Shown here piece after piece: positions 40,545 through 47,803 of a stretch of 56,242 nucleotides of DNA (position 1 is the first letter of the stretch; the number at the start of each line of letters is the position of its first letter). The notes beneath the pieces are model-generated. The model worked only from the letters and a program-made list of their open reading frames with translations. It did not search any database and had not been told where the DNA came from. The DNA is taken from contig JAKASE010000014.1 of the NCBI GenBank assembly GCA_021819135.1, forward strand, positions 1 through 56,242, given 5' to 3'. This DNA is from Thermoplasmata archaeon. Its GTDB lineage: Archaea; Thermoplasmatota; Thermoplasmata; Lutacidiplasmatales; UBA184. The position numbers and the translations under genes are program-made.

Positions 40545-40904
40545 TCACGTCGCGCGGAGGAGGCGGGTGAGCCCCTCCGCATGCGCCCGAGCCTCCGCCC
40601 GCGGAACCGACCGATCCGATGTCAAGGCCAGGATGGCCTCCGGTCCCGCGGCGAGCAGGGCGGTCGTCGTCTCCGGGCCGTCTACGAACCCGCGCTGCGG
40701 TCGCCCCCGACGGAGTTCGGATCCCAGCGTTCCCGCGGCTCCGAAGATCGTCGCGCACAGGATCGCGAAGGTCTCGGCCGAGACCCCCGGTGGCACGTCC
40801 GCCGAAAGGACCGTCCCGTCGCGCGCGAGGATCGCGGCCACGACGGCCCCGGTCCGCTGTCGCATCTCACAGACCGCCTCGACAACGCCGGCGCCTTCCC
40901 TCAT
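40545..40904 (-). CDS. Roadblock/LC7-like protein
   Basis: The product is 119 residues. The order is helix (GVVEAVCEMRQRTGAVVAA), strand (AILARDGTVLSADVP), then a long helix (AETFAILCATIFGAAGTLGS), followed by ELRRG and strands. It matches the Roadblock/LC7 fold, which in prokaryotes works as a dimer next to small GTPases or signalling ATPases. It overlaps the KaiC-like gene by ATGA, so the two are made together and probably interact. Confidence 0.7.
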   Translation of the reverse strand: MREGAGVVEAVCEMRQRTGAVVAAILARDGTVLSADVPPGVSAETFAILCATIFGAAGTLGSELRRGRPQRGFVDGPETTTALLAAGPEAILALTSDRSVPRAEARAHAEGLTRLLRAT

Positions 40905-41707
40905 AAGCCGGGCCCCCGGTCGGACGGCCCCGGGATGAACACGACGTGGGGCAATCCCCTCGACGGATCCGGAACGACCACGTGGCTCGGAAACCGGGGG
41001 CGGAGTCCCCGGATGGTGAGGCCGACGTCCTCCCGGTGCAGGGCGAACTCCGTGTCCACCATCTGACGGACGCTGTCGGCACAGCCGACCCCGGGACCCA
41101 GGACCCCGATCCCAAGGTTTCCCATCTGCCGGGTGCGCTTGGTCCCCTGAAAGAACGCCTTCACCGCGTCCTCGCTCCCCAGGAGCGTATCGAACACCTC
41201 GAACGCGGTGCTCTCCACGAACGGCCGGTGGCGACCTCCCTGGGCCGCCTTCTCGGCCGCCACCGCCTTCGCGACCGCTGCCCGGCGCGCCTTCGGGTCA
41301 CGCCGGCGCCCGAGAGGGTCCCGCTCCGGGTCTCCGATGGTCACGACGTACGACAGCCCCCGGTCCTCCCCGGCATAGTCGAAGATCCGTACCCGGCTGT
41401 CGAACCGACGGCGGGTGACGAAACGGATCATCCGATCGCGAAAGCGGTGCGGTACGTCCCGGGTGGGCAGGATGGCGACCAGGCCCCGAGACTGGTAGAG
41501 CGCGTTGAGGTACGCGGGAAAGAGCAGGAGATCGAGGTCCTCCAGTCCGACGGTGGGGTCCATCGTAAAGAGGGCGACGCTGCCTCGGGAGAAGCCGCCC
41601 CCGAGCAGCCGGTCGAAATCCGGAATCCCGCTTGAGAATCGTCCGTCCGGATCCGGAACGGGTGTCCAGGGTGCGGGCTCGTTCGACCTTCGCGCGGAGG
41701 TGCCCAT
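40901..41707 (-). CDS. KaiC/RadA-like protein with degenerate P-loop
   Basis: The product is 268 residues. The opening SSGIPDFDRLLGGGFSRGSV (residues 25-44) is the hallmark of KaiC/RadA-type RecA folds, directly before Walker A. The expected GxxGxGKT is replaced by MDPTVGLEDLD (about 49-59) with no Lys or Ser/Thr, so ATP binding is probably lost. The rest keeps the alternating strand pattern (LVAILPTRDVPHRFRDRMIR, SRVRIFDYAGEDRGLSYVVT). A non-catalytic scaffold or sensor is likely. The promoter region carries a 13-base palindrome. The Roadblock gene follows by ATGA. Confidence 0.65.
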   Translation of the reverse strand: MGTSARRSNEPAPWTPVPDPDGRFSSGIPDFDRLLGGGFSRGSVALFTMDPTVGLEDLDLLLFPAYLNALYQSRGLVAILPTRDVPHRFRDRMIRFVTRRRFDSRVRIFDYAGEDRGLSYVVTIGDPERDPLGRRRDPKARRAAVAKAVAAEKAAQGGRHRPFVESTAFEVFDTLLGSEDAVKAFFQGTKRTRQMGNLGIGVLGPGVGCADSVRQMVDTEFALHREDVGLTIRGLRPRFPSHVVVPDPSRGLPHVVFIPGPSDRGPGL

Positions 41708-41970: not shown

Positions 41971-43929
41971 CTACCTCCCGTCGGTCGTCAGGGGGTGGAC
42001 CGCTCGCTCGAGGACCTCCGCCGGAAGCCGGAGCCCCTGAAGGGCGGCAAGGAATCGCGGATCGCCCCGGATCGGATCGAACGCCGGGCTCGAGTAGCGC
42101 AGCCAGAGCCCGCTCTCCCCTTCCCTCTTCAGCGTTTCGAGGAGCGTGAGGGCCTTCTCCTTCTCTCCGATGACCGAGTACAACATGGCGACGAAGTCGT
42201 TCGATACGAACTCGTGGGGAGCACCCCCTTCGAGCTCCGCCAGGAGCGCGCGCGCCTCCTGAGGCTCCCCGATCATCGCGAGGACGATGGCACGCCCGAC
42301 CCGGACGAGGAGGGCGGTCGGGGGCCCCGCGAGCTCGAGTTCACGGTGGGCCTCGACCGTCCGTCGGTCCATCGCGTACCGCACCGCAAACGCGACGTGG
42401 GTCATTCTCGGCGACGGATCCTCCGGTAGCAGCTCGCGAAGCCGTGCCTGGGCGTCGGCCACCGAGTGGTGCATCAGGGCGATATCGACCAGCAACCACC
42501 GGGGGGTCGCGGACTTGGGGTCGGTCTCGACGGCCATACGGAGCTGGTGCTCCGCCTCGGGGAAGCGCCCGAGGACCCGCAGGAGCGTCGAATAGCTCAC
42601 CCGGGCCATGGTATTGCTCGGGTTGAGCGTGATCGCCCGCTCGAATTCCCGCTCCGCACGGGGCCAGTCGTGGTCGGCCTGCATCGCGAGGTTCCCGAGG
42701 GCGGAGTGGGCCTCGGAGAGCTCCGGGTCGAGCTCGAGCGCGCGGGTGATGAGCGCCCGGGCCCGATCGAGCCCTTCGTGGTGCGGCAGGTAGTCTCCGG
42801 CGGCCTGAACGAAGCGATGACCGAGTTGCGCGTAGGCGAGGGCGAACTCGGGGTCCCGCCGGATCGCCTCCTCGAGCATCTCGATCGATTCCCGGAACCA
42901 GCGGTGGTCCAGCTCGTCGGCGCGAAGGATCGCGCGGAGGTAGAGCTCGTACGCCGCGAGGTCCGATGTGGGGGATCGTCGGATGAACTCGCGGGCACGG
43001 TCCGACAGTTCGACCCGGATCGCCTTGGCCGTGCTCTCCGCGACCTCGGTCTGGATGGCGAAGACGTCCGACAGTTCGCGGTCGTACCGCTCCGACCAGA
43101 CGTGCTCCTGGCTCGGCACGTCGATGAGCTGCAGCGTGATGCGCAACCGGTCGCCCGCCTTGCGCACGCTCCCCTCGAGGATCGATCCCACGCCGAGCTC
43201 GCTCCCGATCTGGGCGACCGACTTCGCGCTCGACTTGTACGGGACGACGGAGGTACGGGCGATCACGCGGAGCCCGGGGATCTTGGAGAGGACGGCGATC
43301 AGCTCCTCCGTGAGCCCGTCGGCGAAGTACTCGTCCTTCGCGTCGGGGCTGATGTTCGCGAGCGGGAGCACCGCGAGCCGCGGGTGCGCCGCACGGGAGG
43401 GCGCCGCGGCCGCCCCGGGAACCCCGACGCGATAGAGCCCGATCGGCTCGCTCACTCCCTTCAGGACCTGGGGTCCGAGGGGCTCGAGACCGTAGTGGAC
43501 CTTGTTCCGGACCTGGTTATACACCGATTCCGAGATCACGATCCCCCCGGCTTCCGCGGCCGACTCGACCCGGGCGGCGACGTTGACCGCGTCGCCGAAG
43601 ATGTCCTGGTCCCGCCGCTGGACGTCTCCGAGGTGCACACCGACCCGGAGGCGGAGCGCGACGACCCCGGGCCGGGCGTTGCGGTCGAGGACCTGCTTCT
43701 GGAGCTCGACGGCCGACTCGATCGCATCGAGGGCGCTCGGTAACTCGAGGAGGAGGCCGTCGCCCGTGGACTTCACGAGCCGTCCATGATGGGCCTCGAC
43801 GATCGGCCGGGCGATGCGCTCCTGCTCCTCGATCAGGGCGAGGGCGGTACGCTCGTCCGTCTGGGCAAGATGGGTGGAATCCACCATGTCGGTGAACATG
43901 ATGGCCGCCAGCTGCCGGCTCGCTGCCAC
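41971..43929 (-). CDS. Class III nucleotidyl cyclase with TolB/FlgO-like and TPR regions
   Basis: The product is 652 residues. Cyclase domain (1-170): metal Asp D14 in IMFTDMVDST, K53 and metal D57 in KSTGDGLL, D113 in FGDAVNVAAR, N116 and R120. The Lys/Asp pair is the adenine-selecting combination, so cAMP is the expected product. Residues ~183-330 (RLAVLPLANISPDAKDEYFA...) form the TolB/FlgO-like domain often attached to such cyclases in proteobacteria. The rest is a TPR array. The GTG at 43929 gives the classic AASRQLAAIMFTDM start, about 27 bases behind a T-rich box. It is divergent from a cNMP-binding gene. Class III cyclases are rare in archaea. Confidence 0.85.
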   Translation of the reverse strand: MAASRQLAAIMFTDMVDSTHLAQTDERTALALIEEQERIARPIVEAHHGRLVKSTGDGLLLELPSALDAIESAVELQKQVLDRNARPGVVALRLRVGVHLGDVQRRDQDIFGDAVNVAARVESAAEAGGIVISESVYNQVRNKVHYGLEPLGPQVLKGVSEPIGLYRVGVPGAAAAPSRAAHPRLAVLPLANISPDAKDEYFADGLTEELIAVLSKIPGLRVIARTSVVPYKSSAKSVAQIGSELGVGSILEGSVRKAGDRLRITLQLIDVPSQEHVWSERYDRELSDVFAIQTEVAESTAKAIRVELSDRAREFIRRSPTSDLAAYELYLRAILRADELDHRWFRESIEMLEEAIRRDPEFALAYAQLGHRFVQAAGDYLPHHEGLDRARALITRALELDPELSEAHSALGNLAMQADHDWPRAEREFERAITLNPSNTMARVSYSTLLRVLGRFPEAEHQLRMAVETDPKSATPRWLLVDIALMHHSVADAQARLRELLPEDPSPRMTHVAFAVRYAMDRRTVEAHRELELAGPPTALLVRVGRAIVLAMIGEPQEARALLAELEGGAPHEFVSNDFVAMLYSVIGEKEKALTLLETLKREGESGLWLRYSSPAFDPIRGDPRFLAALQGLRLPAEVLERAVHPLTTDGR

Positions 43930-44101
43930 ACCGGGGCGAGGGCCGCCGTCCACAAAAAGGTCGGCGTCTCGCCCCGGACCCGGTCCACCCGCGCCGACGT
44001 CGCCCTTGCCTCGCGCCGCATGGCCGGGGCCGTGGGGTCCCGGCCCCCGGCTCGGAACGGTCCGCCCTATCCCCCTCGCGGCGGGGGAGCCGACGCTCAG
44101 G

Positions 44102-44109
44102 GCTATATC
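44102..44109 (+). promoter_or_regulatory. TATA box of the cNMP-binding protein gene
   Basis: GCTATATC is centred 26-27 bases before the GTG at 44132 and is a good archaeal TATA, supporting a leaderless start. Confidence 0.55.
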
Positions 44110-44131
44110 CCGGCAGTCGGTCAGCCGTCGC

Positions 44132-44572
44132 GTGCCCGTCTTCCAAGGAAAGGCCGCGAACGAGAGCGCCCAGTTGCTCGGCAAGGTTCCGATCTTCGCG
44201 AGCGCCAGCGAGCGGGAGCTGAAGCATCTCGCTCGGGATGGCGCGGAGCGAACGTACAAGGAGGGCGCCGCCGTCGTCTCGCAGGGCGAGAAGGGGATCG
44301 GCCTCTACCTCGTGCTGGACGGCAAGGTCGAGGTCCGGCGCAAGGGCCGCCGCCTCGCCACGCTCGGCCCGGGTCAGTTCTTCGGAGAGATGTCGATCTT
44401 TGATGACCAGCCGCGTTCGGCGGACGTCGTGGCCGTCGTCCCCACCCGATGCCTCGTCCTCTCGAAGTGGGAGTTCTGGGGCTACGCGAACCACCACACG
44501 GGGCTGCTTCGCGGGATGCTCGAGGAGATGGCCCGCCGCCTGCGGGCCACGGACCAGGCCCTATCGGAGTAG
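44132..44572 (+). CDS. Stand-alone cyclic-nucleotide-binding domain protein
   Basis: The product is 146 residues, a single cNMP-binding beta-barrel with flanking helices. The phosphate-binding cassette FGEMSIFDDQPRSADV (84-99) keeps both key residues: E86 for the ribose hydroxyl and R95 for the cyclic phosphate. LLGKVPIFASASERELKHLA is the typical N-terminal helix pair. There is no helix-turn-helix, kinase or channel part, so it must act through a partner. The start GTG 44132 fits the TATA at 44102-44109. It lies back to back with the nucleotidyl cyclase, the likely source of its ligand. Confidence 0.87.
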   Translation: MPVFQGKAANESAQLLGKVPIFASASERELKHLARDGAERTYKEGAAVVSQGEKGIGLYLVLDGKVEVRRKGRRLATLGPGQFFGEMSIFDDQPRSADVVAVVPTRCLVLSKWEFWGYANHHTGLLRGMLEEMARRLRATDQALSE

Positions 44573-44630: not shown

Positions 44631-46721
44631 TCAGCGTCGCGGCAGCTTCCCGTCGACCAGGAGCGGGAGCGCGCGTCGGCGAATCCCCGAGGCGTCGAAG
44701 ATCGCGTTCGCGATCGCCGGCGCCACCGCGATCATCGGGGTCTCGCCTCCGCCGACCGGCGGGAGGTCCTTCCGGTCGATCAGGATCGTGTCGAGCTCGG
44801 GGAGGTCGGAGAACCGGGGGACCCGGTACTGCGAGAGACGGGGGTTCAGGATGCGACCGTCGCGGAAGTGGATCGATTCGAACAGCGCTCCGCCGATGGC
44901 CATCATCGCCGCCCCCTCGACCTGGTTCCTCAGGTTCTCCGGGTGAACGATCGCCCCCGCCTCGAACGCGGTGACGAGGCGGTCGACGTGGACCGACCGA
45001 TCCGCGCCGACCGACACCTCGGCGACCGTCGCCACGCGCCCCTCCTTCTCGAGCCCGACCGCGAGGCCGTGACCTCTTCCCGCCGAACGGACCCATCCGC
45101 TCCAGCCGGCCCGCTCGGCGGCGCTCCGTAGGACCGCGAGCAGCCGTTCGTCCTCGAGGTTCCGCTCCCGGAAGGCGAGCGGATCGATCTCGGCGAGCCC
45201 GGCCAGCTCGTCGATCGCGACCTCCCGCGCGAAGTTGTTCGTGTTCGCCGCCAGCGATCGGTACGCGCCCTGGGGTAGCGGGGAGACGGACAGTTCGTTG
45301 TCGATGCGGTAATCCCTGACGCGGTACGGCGAGCCGAGCCCGGCGGACCCGGCGTTCACATTGTGGAACACCCAGGCCGCCAGCCGCCCGTCGCGGTTCA
45401 CGGCGGCACGGACGTCGATGAGGGCCATCGGCCGGAAGTAGCCGAACCGGAACTCCTCCTCGCGGGAGAACGTGACCGCGACCGGAGCACCGGCCGCCCG
45501 CGCGAGGCGGGCCGCCGCCAGGGACACGTCGCCCCCGTGCTTCCCTCCGAACCCGGAACCGGTGTACGGAACGATCACGCGGACGTCCTCGACCGCGAGC
45601 CCGAGCGCCTCGGCCACGTGATCCCGTGCGCGGAACGGCGTCTGGGTCCCGACCCAGACGGTGAGTCGGGGGCCGGTCCACTCCGCGACGGCCGTTCTCG
45701 TCTCGAGGGGAACGTGGGCGATGTACGCGGTGCGGTACGTGACCTCGATCGATCGGTCGGCGTGGGCGAGGATCCCGTCGGGGTCGCCGTCGGAGTCCGA
45801 CCGCACCTCCCAGCCATCGCCGTTCCGCGGGTGGGCCCGCAGGAACGCCTCGGCCTCGTCCTCGCGGGGCTGGGGCGACTCCTCCCACTCGGCCTCGACG
45901 TCCGCCAGGGCCGCACGCGCCTCGAAGGGCGACGGCGCCACCACCCCCGCGAACTCCCCCTCCCGGACGAAGCGGACGCCCGGCCTCGCCTCCGCCCTCG
46001 CTCCATCGACCCGTACGAGCCGGGCCCCGATCCTCGGAGGGCGAAGGATCGCCCCCCAGTGCATGGCCGGGAGCCTCAGGTCCGAGACGAACGTCCGCCG
46101 CCCGGTGACGACGTCCCGGGCGTGGGGGTCGAGCGCCGGATGGCCGGCCACGCGCCAGTCCTCCGCTCGGGTCAGGGGTGGAGTCGGGCCCACCGGGACG
46201 ACCTCCCGCCGACCGCGGACCAGTTCGGCGTACGGCGTCCCCCGCGAGCGGCCGGGCGGGCGGACCTCGCCATCGACCGCCTCTCCCGGGGTCCCGGACC
46301 CACCCGCGGCCATGGAGGCTCGCTCGATCAGGGCCGCCCGGGCCGTGGCCGCCACCTCACGGAGCGCCGGCAGCGCATCCGGCATCGAGCGGCTGCCGAA
46401 CGTTCCCATGTCCCACGGGCAGAGGTCCGTGTCCCCCATCACGAGCTCGACGCGCTCGAGCGGGACCCGAAGCTCCTCGGCGACCGCGAGCGAAAGCGCG
46501 GTCCGGGTCCCCTGCCCGACCTCGACCTTCCCCGTGAAAGCCCGGATCCGACCGTCCGGGGCGATGTGGATCCACGCGGAGGGCGGGGAGAAGCCCCGCT
46601 CCGGTCCTTTCGACCGCAGGGGGACCCGGTGGACGACCAGCCCCTCGCCGAGAACGTCGAAGTAGTCCCGTTCCGAAGGAGGGGTCCGGTCCCACGGACG
46701 CTTGGGTCGTGGCGGGAGCAT
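44631..46721 (-). CDS. Molybdenum hydroxylase, molybdopterin-binding large subunit
   Basis: The product is 696 residues of the xanthine-dehydrogenase/aldehyde-oxidase family, closest in layout to isoquinoline 1-oxidoreductase-type two-subunit enzymes. It shows GKVEVGQGTRTALSLAVAEE, PYTGSGFGGKHGGD, PQGAYRSLAANTNNFA, and near the C-terminus the catalytic Glu in PVGGGETPMIAVAPAIANAI. No signal peptide is obvious. It is one base behind the 2Fe-2S subunit gene. No FAD subunit is adjacent, so electrons must leave by another carrier. The substrate is unknown. Confidence 0.85.
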   Translation of the reverse strand: MLPPRPKRPWDRTPPSERDYFDVLGEGLVVHRVPLRSKGPERGFSPPSAWIHIAPDGRIRAFTGKVEVGQGTRTALSLAVAEELRVPLERVELVMGDTDLCPWDMGTFGSRSMPDALPALREVAATARAALIERASMAAGGSGTPGEAVDGEVRPPGRSRGTPYAELVRGRREVVPVGPTPPLTRAEDWRVAGHPALDPHARDVVTGRRTFVSDLRLPAMHWGAILRPPRIGARLVRVDGARAEARPGVRFVREGEFAGVVAPSPFEARAALADVEAEWEESPQPREDEAEAFLRAHPRNGDGWEVRSDSDGDPDGILAHADRSIEVTYRTAYIAHVPLETRTAVAEWTGPRLTVWVGTQTPFRARDHVAEALGLAVEDVRVIVPYTGSGFGGKHGGDVSLAAARLARAAGAPVAVTFSREEEFRFGYFRPMALIDVRAAVNRDGRLAAWVFHNVNAGSAGLGSPYRVRDYRIDNELSVSPLPQGAYRSLAANTNNFAREVAIDELAGLAEIDPLAFRERNLEDERLLAVLRSAAERAGWSGWVRSAGRGHGLAVGLEKEGRVATVAEVSVGADRSVHVDRLVTAFEAGAIVHPENLRNQVEGAAMMAIGGALFESIHFRDGRILNPRLSQYRVPRFSDLPELDTILIDRKDLPPVGGGETPMIAVAPAIANAIFDASGIRRRALPLLVDGKLPRR

Positions 46722-46722
46722 C

Positions 46723-47238
46723 TCAGGGACCTCGCATCCGATCGCCGCGGGCGATCTCCGAGGCCCGCCGGACGGCCCGGACGATGCGGGCGTTCGCTCC
46801 GCACCGACAGAGGTGGGGTTCGAGCGCCTCCCGGATATCGGCCTCCGAGGGGTCGGGGTTCCGATCCAAGAGCGCAGTGGCCCGCACCACCATTCCGGGG
46901 GTGCAGAAGCCGCACTGGAACGCCCCCGTCTCCACGAACGCTTGCTGGGCCGGGTTCAGCCGATCCCCCGTCGCCATGCCCTCGATCGTCCGGACATCGG
47001 CGCCCTGGAGCTCCCGTATCGGGACCTGGCACGCCGGGGTCGGGGTCCCGTCGACGAGCACCGTGCACGCTCCGCACTCCCCCTCCCCGCATCCGTACTT
47101 GGTGCCGGTGCGACCGAGATCGACCCGCAGCGCCTCGAGGAGGTGGCGCTCGGGGGATCCCGATACGGTCACCGGTTCCCCGTTGACCGTCAGCCGTACC
47201 CCGCGCGCGGCTCTGCCCCCCGCGCCCTTACCGGCCAT
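46723..47238 (-). CDS. Molybdenum hydroxylase, [2Fe-2S] small subunit
   Basis: The product is 171 residues. A plant-type [2Fe-2S] site uses C50, C55, C58 and C70 (GCGEGECGACTV...C). The second, helical [2Fe-2S] site uses C109, C112, C144 and C146 (QCGFCTPG...CRCG). These clusters carry electrons from the molybdenum site in the large subunit encoded next. A CCCTTTTGG patch lies about 28 bases before the ATG. Together the pair matches the IorAB layout. Confidence 0.92.
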   Translation of the reverse strand: MAGKGAGGRAARGVRLTVNGEPVTVSGSPERHLLEALRVDLGRTGTKYGCGEGECGACTVLVDGTPTPACQVPIRELQGADVRTIEGMATGDRLNPAQQAFVETGAFQCGFCTPGMVVRATALLDRNPDPSEADIREALEPHLCRCGANARIVRAVRRASEIARGDRMRGP

Positions 47239-47293: not shown

Positions 47294-47803
47294 CTAGTCG
47301 CCGGGGACCGAGCGGTTCGGGGTGGGCGACGGGCGCCCCGGACCGCGGACGATCAGCACCGAACCGCGGGCGTGGTGGAGAATGCCGTCAGAGACGCTGC
47401 CGAGGAAGAGACGCCCGGCCTCGGAGAGGGCGCGGCCGCCGGCCACAATGAGGTCGGGAGGGTGCTCTTCGGCGTAGGCGAGGATCCGCTCGACCGGCCG
47501 GCCCTTGAGCAACTGGGTCTCGACGTGCCGAACGCCTCGGCCTTCGAGCAATGCCTTGGCCCGGACCAGCTCGCCCTCCGCCGCTTCGACCGTCTGGTCT
47601 ACGCTCGCGCCGGCCGGGAGGAGGAGCCCATAGGCGAGCCGGGCCGTGTCGAGCACGAACACGATCGTGACAGACACCTCCGTGCGTCCGGTGATCTCGG
47701 CAACGATGTCGAGGGCGGCCGTCGCCTCGGGCGAGCCATCGTACGCCAGCAGCACCGACCGAAGGGCCATCGTCACCGCGAGCGAACGGGGGGAGATAGC
47801 CAT
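47294..47803 (-). CDS. Universal stress protein (UspA family)
   Basis: The product is 169 residues. It has the Usp fold with SVLLAYDGSPEATAALDIVA at the start of the core, DLIVAGGRALSE, and the ATP-binding G2xG9xGS-like tail LFLGSVSDGILHHARGSVLI. The ATG at 47803 is 24-25 bases from the shared AT-rich box at 47823-47830; an internal ATG at 47770 would shorten it by 11 residues. It is divergent from a sugar nucleotidyltransferase. Confidence 0.85.
   Translation of the reverse strand: MAISPRSLAVTMALRSVLLAYDGSPEATAALDIVAEITGRTEVSVTIVFVLDTARLAYGLLLPAGASVDQTVEAAEGELVRAKALLEGRGVRHVETQLLKGRPVERILAYAEEHPPDLIVAGGRALSEAGRLFLGSVSDGILHHARGSVLIVRGPGRPSPTPNRSVPGD

Follow-up and report, generated by a model that had tools for sequence, protein, structure and literature searches.

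Results

Divergent genes for a nucleotidyl cyclase and a cyclic nucleotide receptor

The window (the whole stretch of 56,242 nucleotides that was analyzed) is contig C32 of a genome, G000, of 2.2 Mb that is 91% complete. The host is a Thermoplasmata archaeon, in keeping with the genes on the contig for a Cpn60_TCP1 chaperonin and for ribosomal protein L21e. Within the window, a gene encoding a class III nucleotidyl cyclase lies back to back with one encoding a small cyclic-nucleotide-binding (CNB) protein, called here the receptor. The features of the locus are as follows:

41971..43929, minus strand: class III nucleotidyl cyclase with C-terminal TPR tail (ORF, PF00211, TPR models, catalytic residues)
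43402..43926, minus strand: catalytic domain of the cyclase (domain span; PDB sequence matches to 3mr7 and to Ma1120, 4wp9)
41974..43386, minus strand: tail of the cyclase, a part without a Pfam family ("TolB/CadC-like") and then TPR repeats (Pfam, NCBIfam)
43930..44131, no strand: shared intergenic region of 202 bp between the divergent genes (sequence)
44132..44572, plus strand: stand-alone CNB receptor of 146 amino acids, with a GTG start at 44132 (PF00027, AlphaFold2, Foldseek)
44378..44428, plus strand: phosphate-binding cassette of the receptor, FFGEMSIFDDQPRSADV (alignment with E. coli CRP)
44387-44389, plus strand: codon of cassette residue Glu86
44414-44416, plus strand: codon of cassette residue Arg95

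The cyclase gene has its stop codon at 41971-41973, and its start was taken to be the GTG at 43929, giving a protein of 652 amino acids and agreeing with the numbering of the original prediction; a GTG at 43953 is a possible alternative. The protein matches PF00211 with 55.2 bits, above the cut-off of 21.9. The metal-binding residues (D14 and D57), the adenine pair (K53/D109), and the Asn/Arg pair (N116/R120) are all present. The claim that every catalytic residue is kept holds for D14, K53, D57, N116, and R120, but the purine-specifying aspartate is D109, not D113 as had been proposed. D109 precedes N116 by 7 residues and R120 by 11, paralleling D157, A164, and R168 in the aligned class III adenylate cyclase Ma1120, where the adenine pair is K101/D157 and D157 precedes position 164 by 7 and R168 by 11 (PMC4215837, in the part available). 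D14, K53, D57, D109, and R120 are invariant in the 47 aligned archaeal cyclase rows (those scoring at least 60 bits against a profile built from them, the window's sequence being counted twice), while N116 and D113 are each kept in 46. The Lys/Asp pair expected of an ATP-type enzyme is thus present, as had been predicted, and never varies, and the residues favor ATP as the substrate. The window cyclase has in common with Ma1120 the PF00211 domain, the two metal-binding aspartates, the Lys/Asp pair, and the conserved arginine, but it keeps an asparagine that Ma1120 lacks, and it belongs to an archaeon whose genus has as many as 21 such enzymes per genome.

The tail had been described as TolB/FlgO followed by TPR, from which a bacterial origin was proposed, at most a possibility here. 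Pfam models for TPR and related repeats do match it, and they are the only ones that do; the supposed TolB/FlgO part has no Pfam match. NCBIfam gave sub-threshold matches to the cyclase, CadC and TIGR04510 among them.

The receptor matches PF00027 with 75.3 bits (cut-off 27.5) and no other Pfam family at 0.01, and its chain ends after the C-helix, bearing out the claim that it lacks an output domain. Similarly, the glutamate and arginine of the cassette are kept, as claimed: FGE (with Glu86) and R.A (with Arg95) never vary in 49 aligned receptors. Its AlphaFold2 model (mean pLDDT 87.2) has the CNB fold, and the ten best PDB matches found with it by Foldseek are GlxR and MtbCRP, seven of them cAMP-bound according to their titles. 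The receptor shares with these bacterial regulators the fold, the Glu/Arg cassette, and a C-helix threonine at the position of CRP Thr127. However, the C-terminal HTH of a CRP/FNR transcription factor was sought in the chain by Pfam, in the model, and in the CRP alignment, and it is absent; where an HTH protein is present, it is encoded by a separate gene of the Lrp type. The receptor would work like CRP, but it is not a CRP. Since it has no DNA-binding domain, it must act on another protein.

A TATA-like sequence (ctatat, 44103-44108) lies 24-29 nt upstream of the receptor start. Such boxes precede many of the 48 receptor genes aligned by their starts, whose combined AT content peaks between about -26 and -39, as expected for native archaeal genes.

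Next to the cyclase, positions 40545-41707 encode a Roadblock/LC7 protein and one with a match to GvpD_bR2, neither of them among the listed recurrent neighbors of receptors. The receptor is followed by genes, on the strand opposite to its own, for a molybdopterin-binding oxidoreductase subunit and a 2Fe-2S subunit (44631-47238; Pfam). Universal stress protein genes are found near receptors at five loci, including the window (47294-47803), L085 (2587-3084), and L073 (4665-5183). One universal stress protein of mycobacteria binds cAMP (PMC11107214, in the part available), which makes a link tempting, although five loci may be no more than chance.

Cyclases and receptors within the genus

Both families were sought in the window's own genome and 60 others of the genus (61 in all), several of which are only 56-75% complete. 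CNB proteins were divided into type A (stand-alone receptors like that of the window) and type B at 60 bits, a threshold set after the table of scores had been seen, with those of G005 and G016 put in type A by their similarity to the window receptor. Class III cyclases number 267 in 45 genomes. Type A receptors occur in 39 genomes, 38 of the 45 with cyclases and 1 of the 16 without (Fisher 3e-8, only a guide, as the sampled genomes are related and P values overstate their independence). That one exception (G080) has, beside its receptor, a cyclase-type tail cut by the end of the contig. Seven cyclase-bearing genomes have no receptor; one of these, G015, has 21 cyclases. Type B proteins (42-58 bits) go weakly with cyclases (29/45 versus 5/16 genomes, P 0.04, subject to the same relatedness) and were set apart from the receptors; the one examined, at L010 on contig C10 of G000, lacks the cassette residues and lies amid ORFs that read as ferredoxin-type and NAD(P)H-reductase-like.

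Linkage was counted on the 47 contigs, many of them short, that hold the 49 type A receptors, in the stretches around these; L105 and L118, which overlap and duplicate L104 and L096, were left out, as were L119 and L120 (type B). A cyclase lies within 4 kb of the receptor in 13 of the 47, as against 1.15 expected from its genome-wide density, and within 2 kb in 6, as against 0.63. The linked loci fall in several clades of the receptor tree and include two cyclase architectures, the one with the TPR tail and one of AAA_16 type. When neighbors within 4 kb were clustered without names, cyclases were the commonest (14 loci), followed by an Lrp-like gene (13 loci); the next came to 8. Eleven of the 13 linked loci have both genes on the same strand. 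The remaining two are the window and G032, in which an Lrp-like gene stands between the pair, so no second directly divergent pair was found among the 13. The original prediction called for a search of archaeal genomes for the same divergent pair: in the genus the linkage is there, and the divergent layout belongs to a minority. The cyclase/receptor pair is genuine, and relatives keep the two kinds of gene linked without holding to one divergent arrangement.

Could the window pair nonetheless be a chance neighborhood of two unrelated genes? The rarity of the divergent layout is in keeping with this, as is the lack of an Lrp-like gene in the window. But within the receptor clade that includes the window's (12 rows, starred in the tree), 6 have a cyclase within 4 kb, and one of these, in G006, is the closest relative of the window's cyclase. 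(Two cyclases more than 60% identical to the window's are listed; the one in G006 is beside a receptor of the window's clade, and the one in G022 is not.) A chance neighborhood therefore seems improbable.

It is another matter whether the two proteins serve only each other. The pair had been proposed to be a complete minimal circuit, but it is not an isolated one, as G000 has seven cyclases and two stand-alone receptors. Perhaps all seven cyclases feed one pool of cyclic nucleotide that is read by two receptors with different partners, in which case the window pair would not be dedicated and the Lrp-like protein would be one output or none. Elsewhere in the genus, too, receptors number 0-3 per genome even where cyclases reach 21; neither a cyclase nor an Lrp-like gene lies within 4 kb in 25 of the 47 receptor loci (again, with many short contigs); and one receptor clade is found beside genes of heme synthesis instead. 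Yet a common pool does not lead one to expect receptor-cyclase linkage so far above chance, nor the three same-strand loci with just 95-238 bp between the domain matches, and this alternative is considered rather unlikely.

The heme-linked clade has a HemA-type gene next to the receptor at five loci: L113 (8913-13421), where HemC and HemB follow, L079, L090, L091, and L103. A URO-D gene lies near the receptor at L101. The receptor may thus have a tie to heme synthesis.

A tandem Lrp/AsnC-fold protein near the receptors

The second receptor locus of G000, on contig C20, encodes in order a cyclase with AAA_16 and TPR, a receptor, and a protein of 323 residues matching HTH_24 and MarR_2 (Pfam). 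A search with this last protein found that 15 of the 47 loci have a homolog no more than 2 kb from the receptor, as against 0.14 expected (the clustering of neighbors, by its own means, had given 13), and receptor, cyclase, and Lrp-like gene occur together in six. The gene is absent from the window and from the neighborhood of the receptor in 32 of the 47 loci overall. The family amounts to 75 matches in 38 of the 61 genomes; 24 reach at least 120 bits, and 12 of these are by a receptor. G000 itself has one close copy, beside the C20 receptor, and one weak one.

The helices and strands of the model (pLDDT 91.8) read as two winged HTH and two Lrp-like parts. Its top structural match by Foldseek is the siroheme decarboxylase NirDL, followed by Lrp/AsnC regulators. 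NirDL is an enzyme of the Lrp fold, so the neighbor might be an enzyme of heme metabolism, with the receptor regulating heme synthesis and not transcription. The HemA-type and URO-D genes near receptors would suit this reading. Against it, the C20 protein matches HTH_24 with 53.3 bits, above the cut-off, while NirdL-like_HTH falls below its own; no invariant histidine was found in 14 Lrp-like sequences (one of them truncated); and an Lrp-like gene is missing from the stretch examined at each of the five heme-linked loci. A role of this kind in heme metabolism is thus improbable. Going by the model and these matches, the protein is probably a regulator and possibly an enzyme. Its place beside so many receptors makes it a likely partner of the receptor in part of the family and a candidate for its output.

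The ligand of the receptor

In the alignment with CRP, Thr140 of the receptor falls at Thr127 and Asp141 at Ser128. Position 141 is Asn in 21 of the 49 receptors, Asp in 10, and another residue in 18. Both Asp and Asn can serve as hydrogen-bond acceptors for amino groups, for example N6 of adenine, and to that extent the residue would fit cAMP as the ligand. Binding of cGMP or cUMP is also possible: Asn at this position reads uracil (cUMP) in PycTIR, and in XC_0249 a Glu at the position accompanies cGMP (PMC11224242, in the part available).

The mention of PycTIR raises the case of Pycsar, an anti-phage system that likewise sets a cyclase (PycC, which makes cyclic pyrimidine nucleotides) beside a CNB protein (PycTIR or PycTM). 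The window receptor does match the CNB half of the PADLOC PycTIR profile (71.7 bits), and many receptors have the uracil-reading Asn. However, the match covers only positions 30-144 of the 288 in the profile, and there is no TIR or membrane effector. The PycC models match the cyclase weakly (28.8 bits at best), and K53/D109 is of the adenine type, as is the Lys/Asp pair in every one of the 47 cyclase rows. Numbers of cyclases as high as 21 per genome also speak against such a defense system, and a Pycsar-like function is very improbable.

Relatives outside the genus

Among 292 genomes sampled across the phylum, 21 have PF00211, and more than one copy per genome is seen in this genus only. Matches to the receptor profile (1e-10) occur in 14 of the 292, four in the genus and ten in a family designated f36. 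In six of these ten (G124, G188, G266, G275, G290, and G326), some 4-5 kb separate a cyclase from a CNB domain, with the two on opposite strands in five of the six; in G206 they are far apart. In G188 (L202, contig C1, 2188-7393; also L203), a CHASE2-class III cyclase and a FecR-like gene are divergent to a GNAT-CNB fusion (Pfam), and the arrangement in G266 reads the same way. This is a separate, second archaeal pairing, reminiscent of the cAMP-controlled acetyltransferases of mycobacteria.

The nearest relatives of the receptor outside the genus, among the matches listed, are bacterial (38-42% identity). A cyclase match was found in the stretch examined at 18 of 74 bacterial loci (kept from the best 80 of 564), including four of the five best-scoring. 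Loci of Coriobacteriia, Actinobacteria, and Chloroflexi (L127-L130, L133) have a receptor of the same family and a cyclase match within 4 kb but no Lrp-like match. The receptor tree took in L125-L160 (above 110 bits) and left out L161-L200 and also L121-L124, duplicates of sampled congeners. Its 51 archaeal rows require two changes in the best tree, with L126 apart, and a single clade is compatible with the data (AU p 0.71).

The idea that both genes came together from bacteria was considered and rejected: the receptors fit, but the aligned bacterial cyclases do not, K appearing in 10 of 16 rows and Asp in 1 of 16. In the alignment, the Lys/Asp pair is missing from the cyclases beside the receptors of L128-L130 and L133, and because of this it looks as if the pairing either arose anew or exchanged a partner.

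Discussion

Cyclic AMP has been measured in archaea. Class III enzymes, however, make up very few of the predicted archaeal cyclases, and the available part of PMC8646023, which states this, infers that an enzyme yet to be identified probably serves most archaea. This, and the sparse occurrence of PF00211 in the phylum, upholds the original remark that signaling of this type is scarcely described in archaea. No description of such an archaeal system was found among the titles and beginnings of abstracts listed, a survey confined to open-licence papers, and the available parts of PMC9939782 and PMC7408454 contain nothing that bears on the matter. The novelty lies in the expansion of cyclases in an archaeon and in a proposed architecture in which receptor and regulator are split.

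With moderate confidence, the locus is best understood as a cAMP circuit belonging to a cyclic-mononucleotide signaling system that has expanded within one genus of Thermoplasmata, with a receptor that acts in trans and an Lrp-like output in part of the family. The cyclase would be cytosolic, under the control of its own TPR tail, and K53/D109 would lead it to convert ATP to cAMP. The receptor, probably a dimer joined through its C-helix, would bind cAMP in the intact cassette and then act on a second protein, the best candidate being the protein of tandem Lrp/AsnC fold, which has two winged HTH domains and is often encoded alongside. In G000, the candidate adjoins the other receptor, on C20, with which it may make contact. 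The role of CRP in bacteria would thus be divided between two proteins, with target genes that the second of them would presumably control. The stronger form of this proposal, that a free cAMP receptor switches a tandem Lrp-type regulator and is fed by many class III cyclases, as if CRP had been split, is possible but is put forward only tentatively.

The findings suggest that an archaeon has rewired a messenger circuit of the bacterial kind. The genus offers many intact class III cyclases, a receptor family that looks dedicated, and a candidate output encoded alongside, and cAMP signaling in archaea thereby becomes directly testable with three proteins. If the proposal is correct, archaea would have a complete pathway from cAMP to transcription, built from a receptor of bacterial type and an output of the Lrp type, and the receptor and regulator that are fused in CRP would be shown to work as separate parts.
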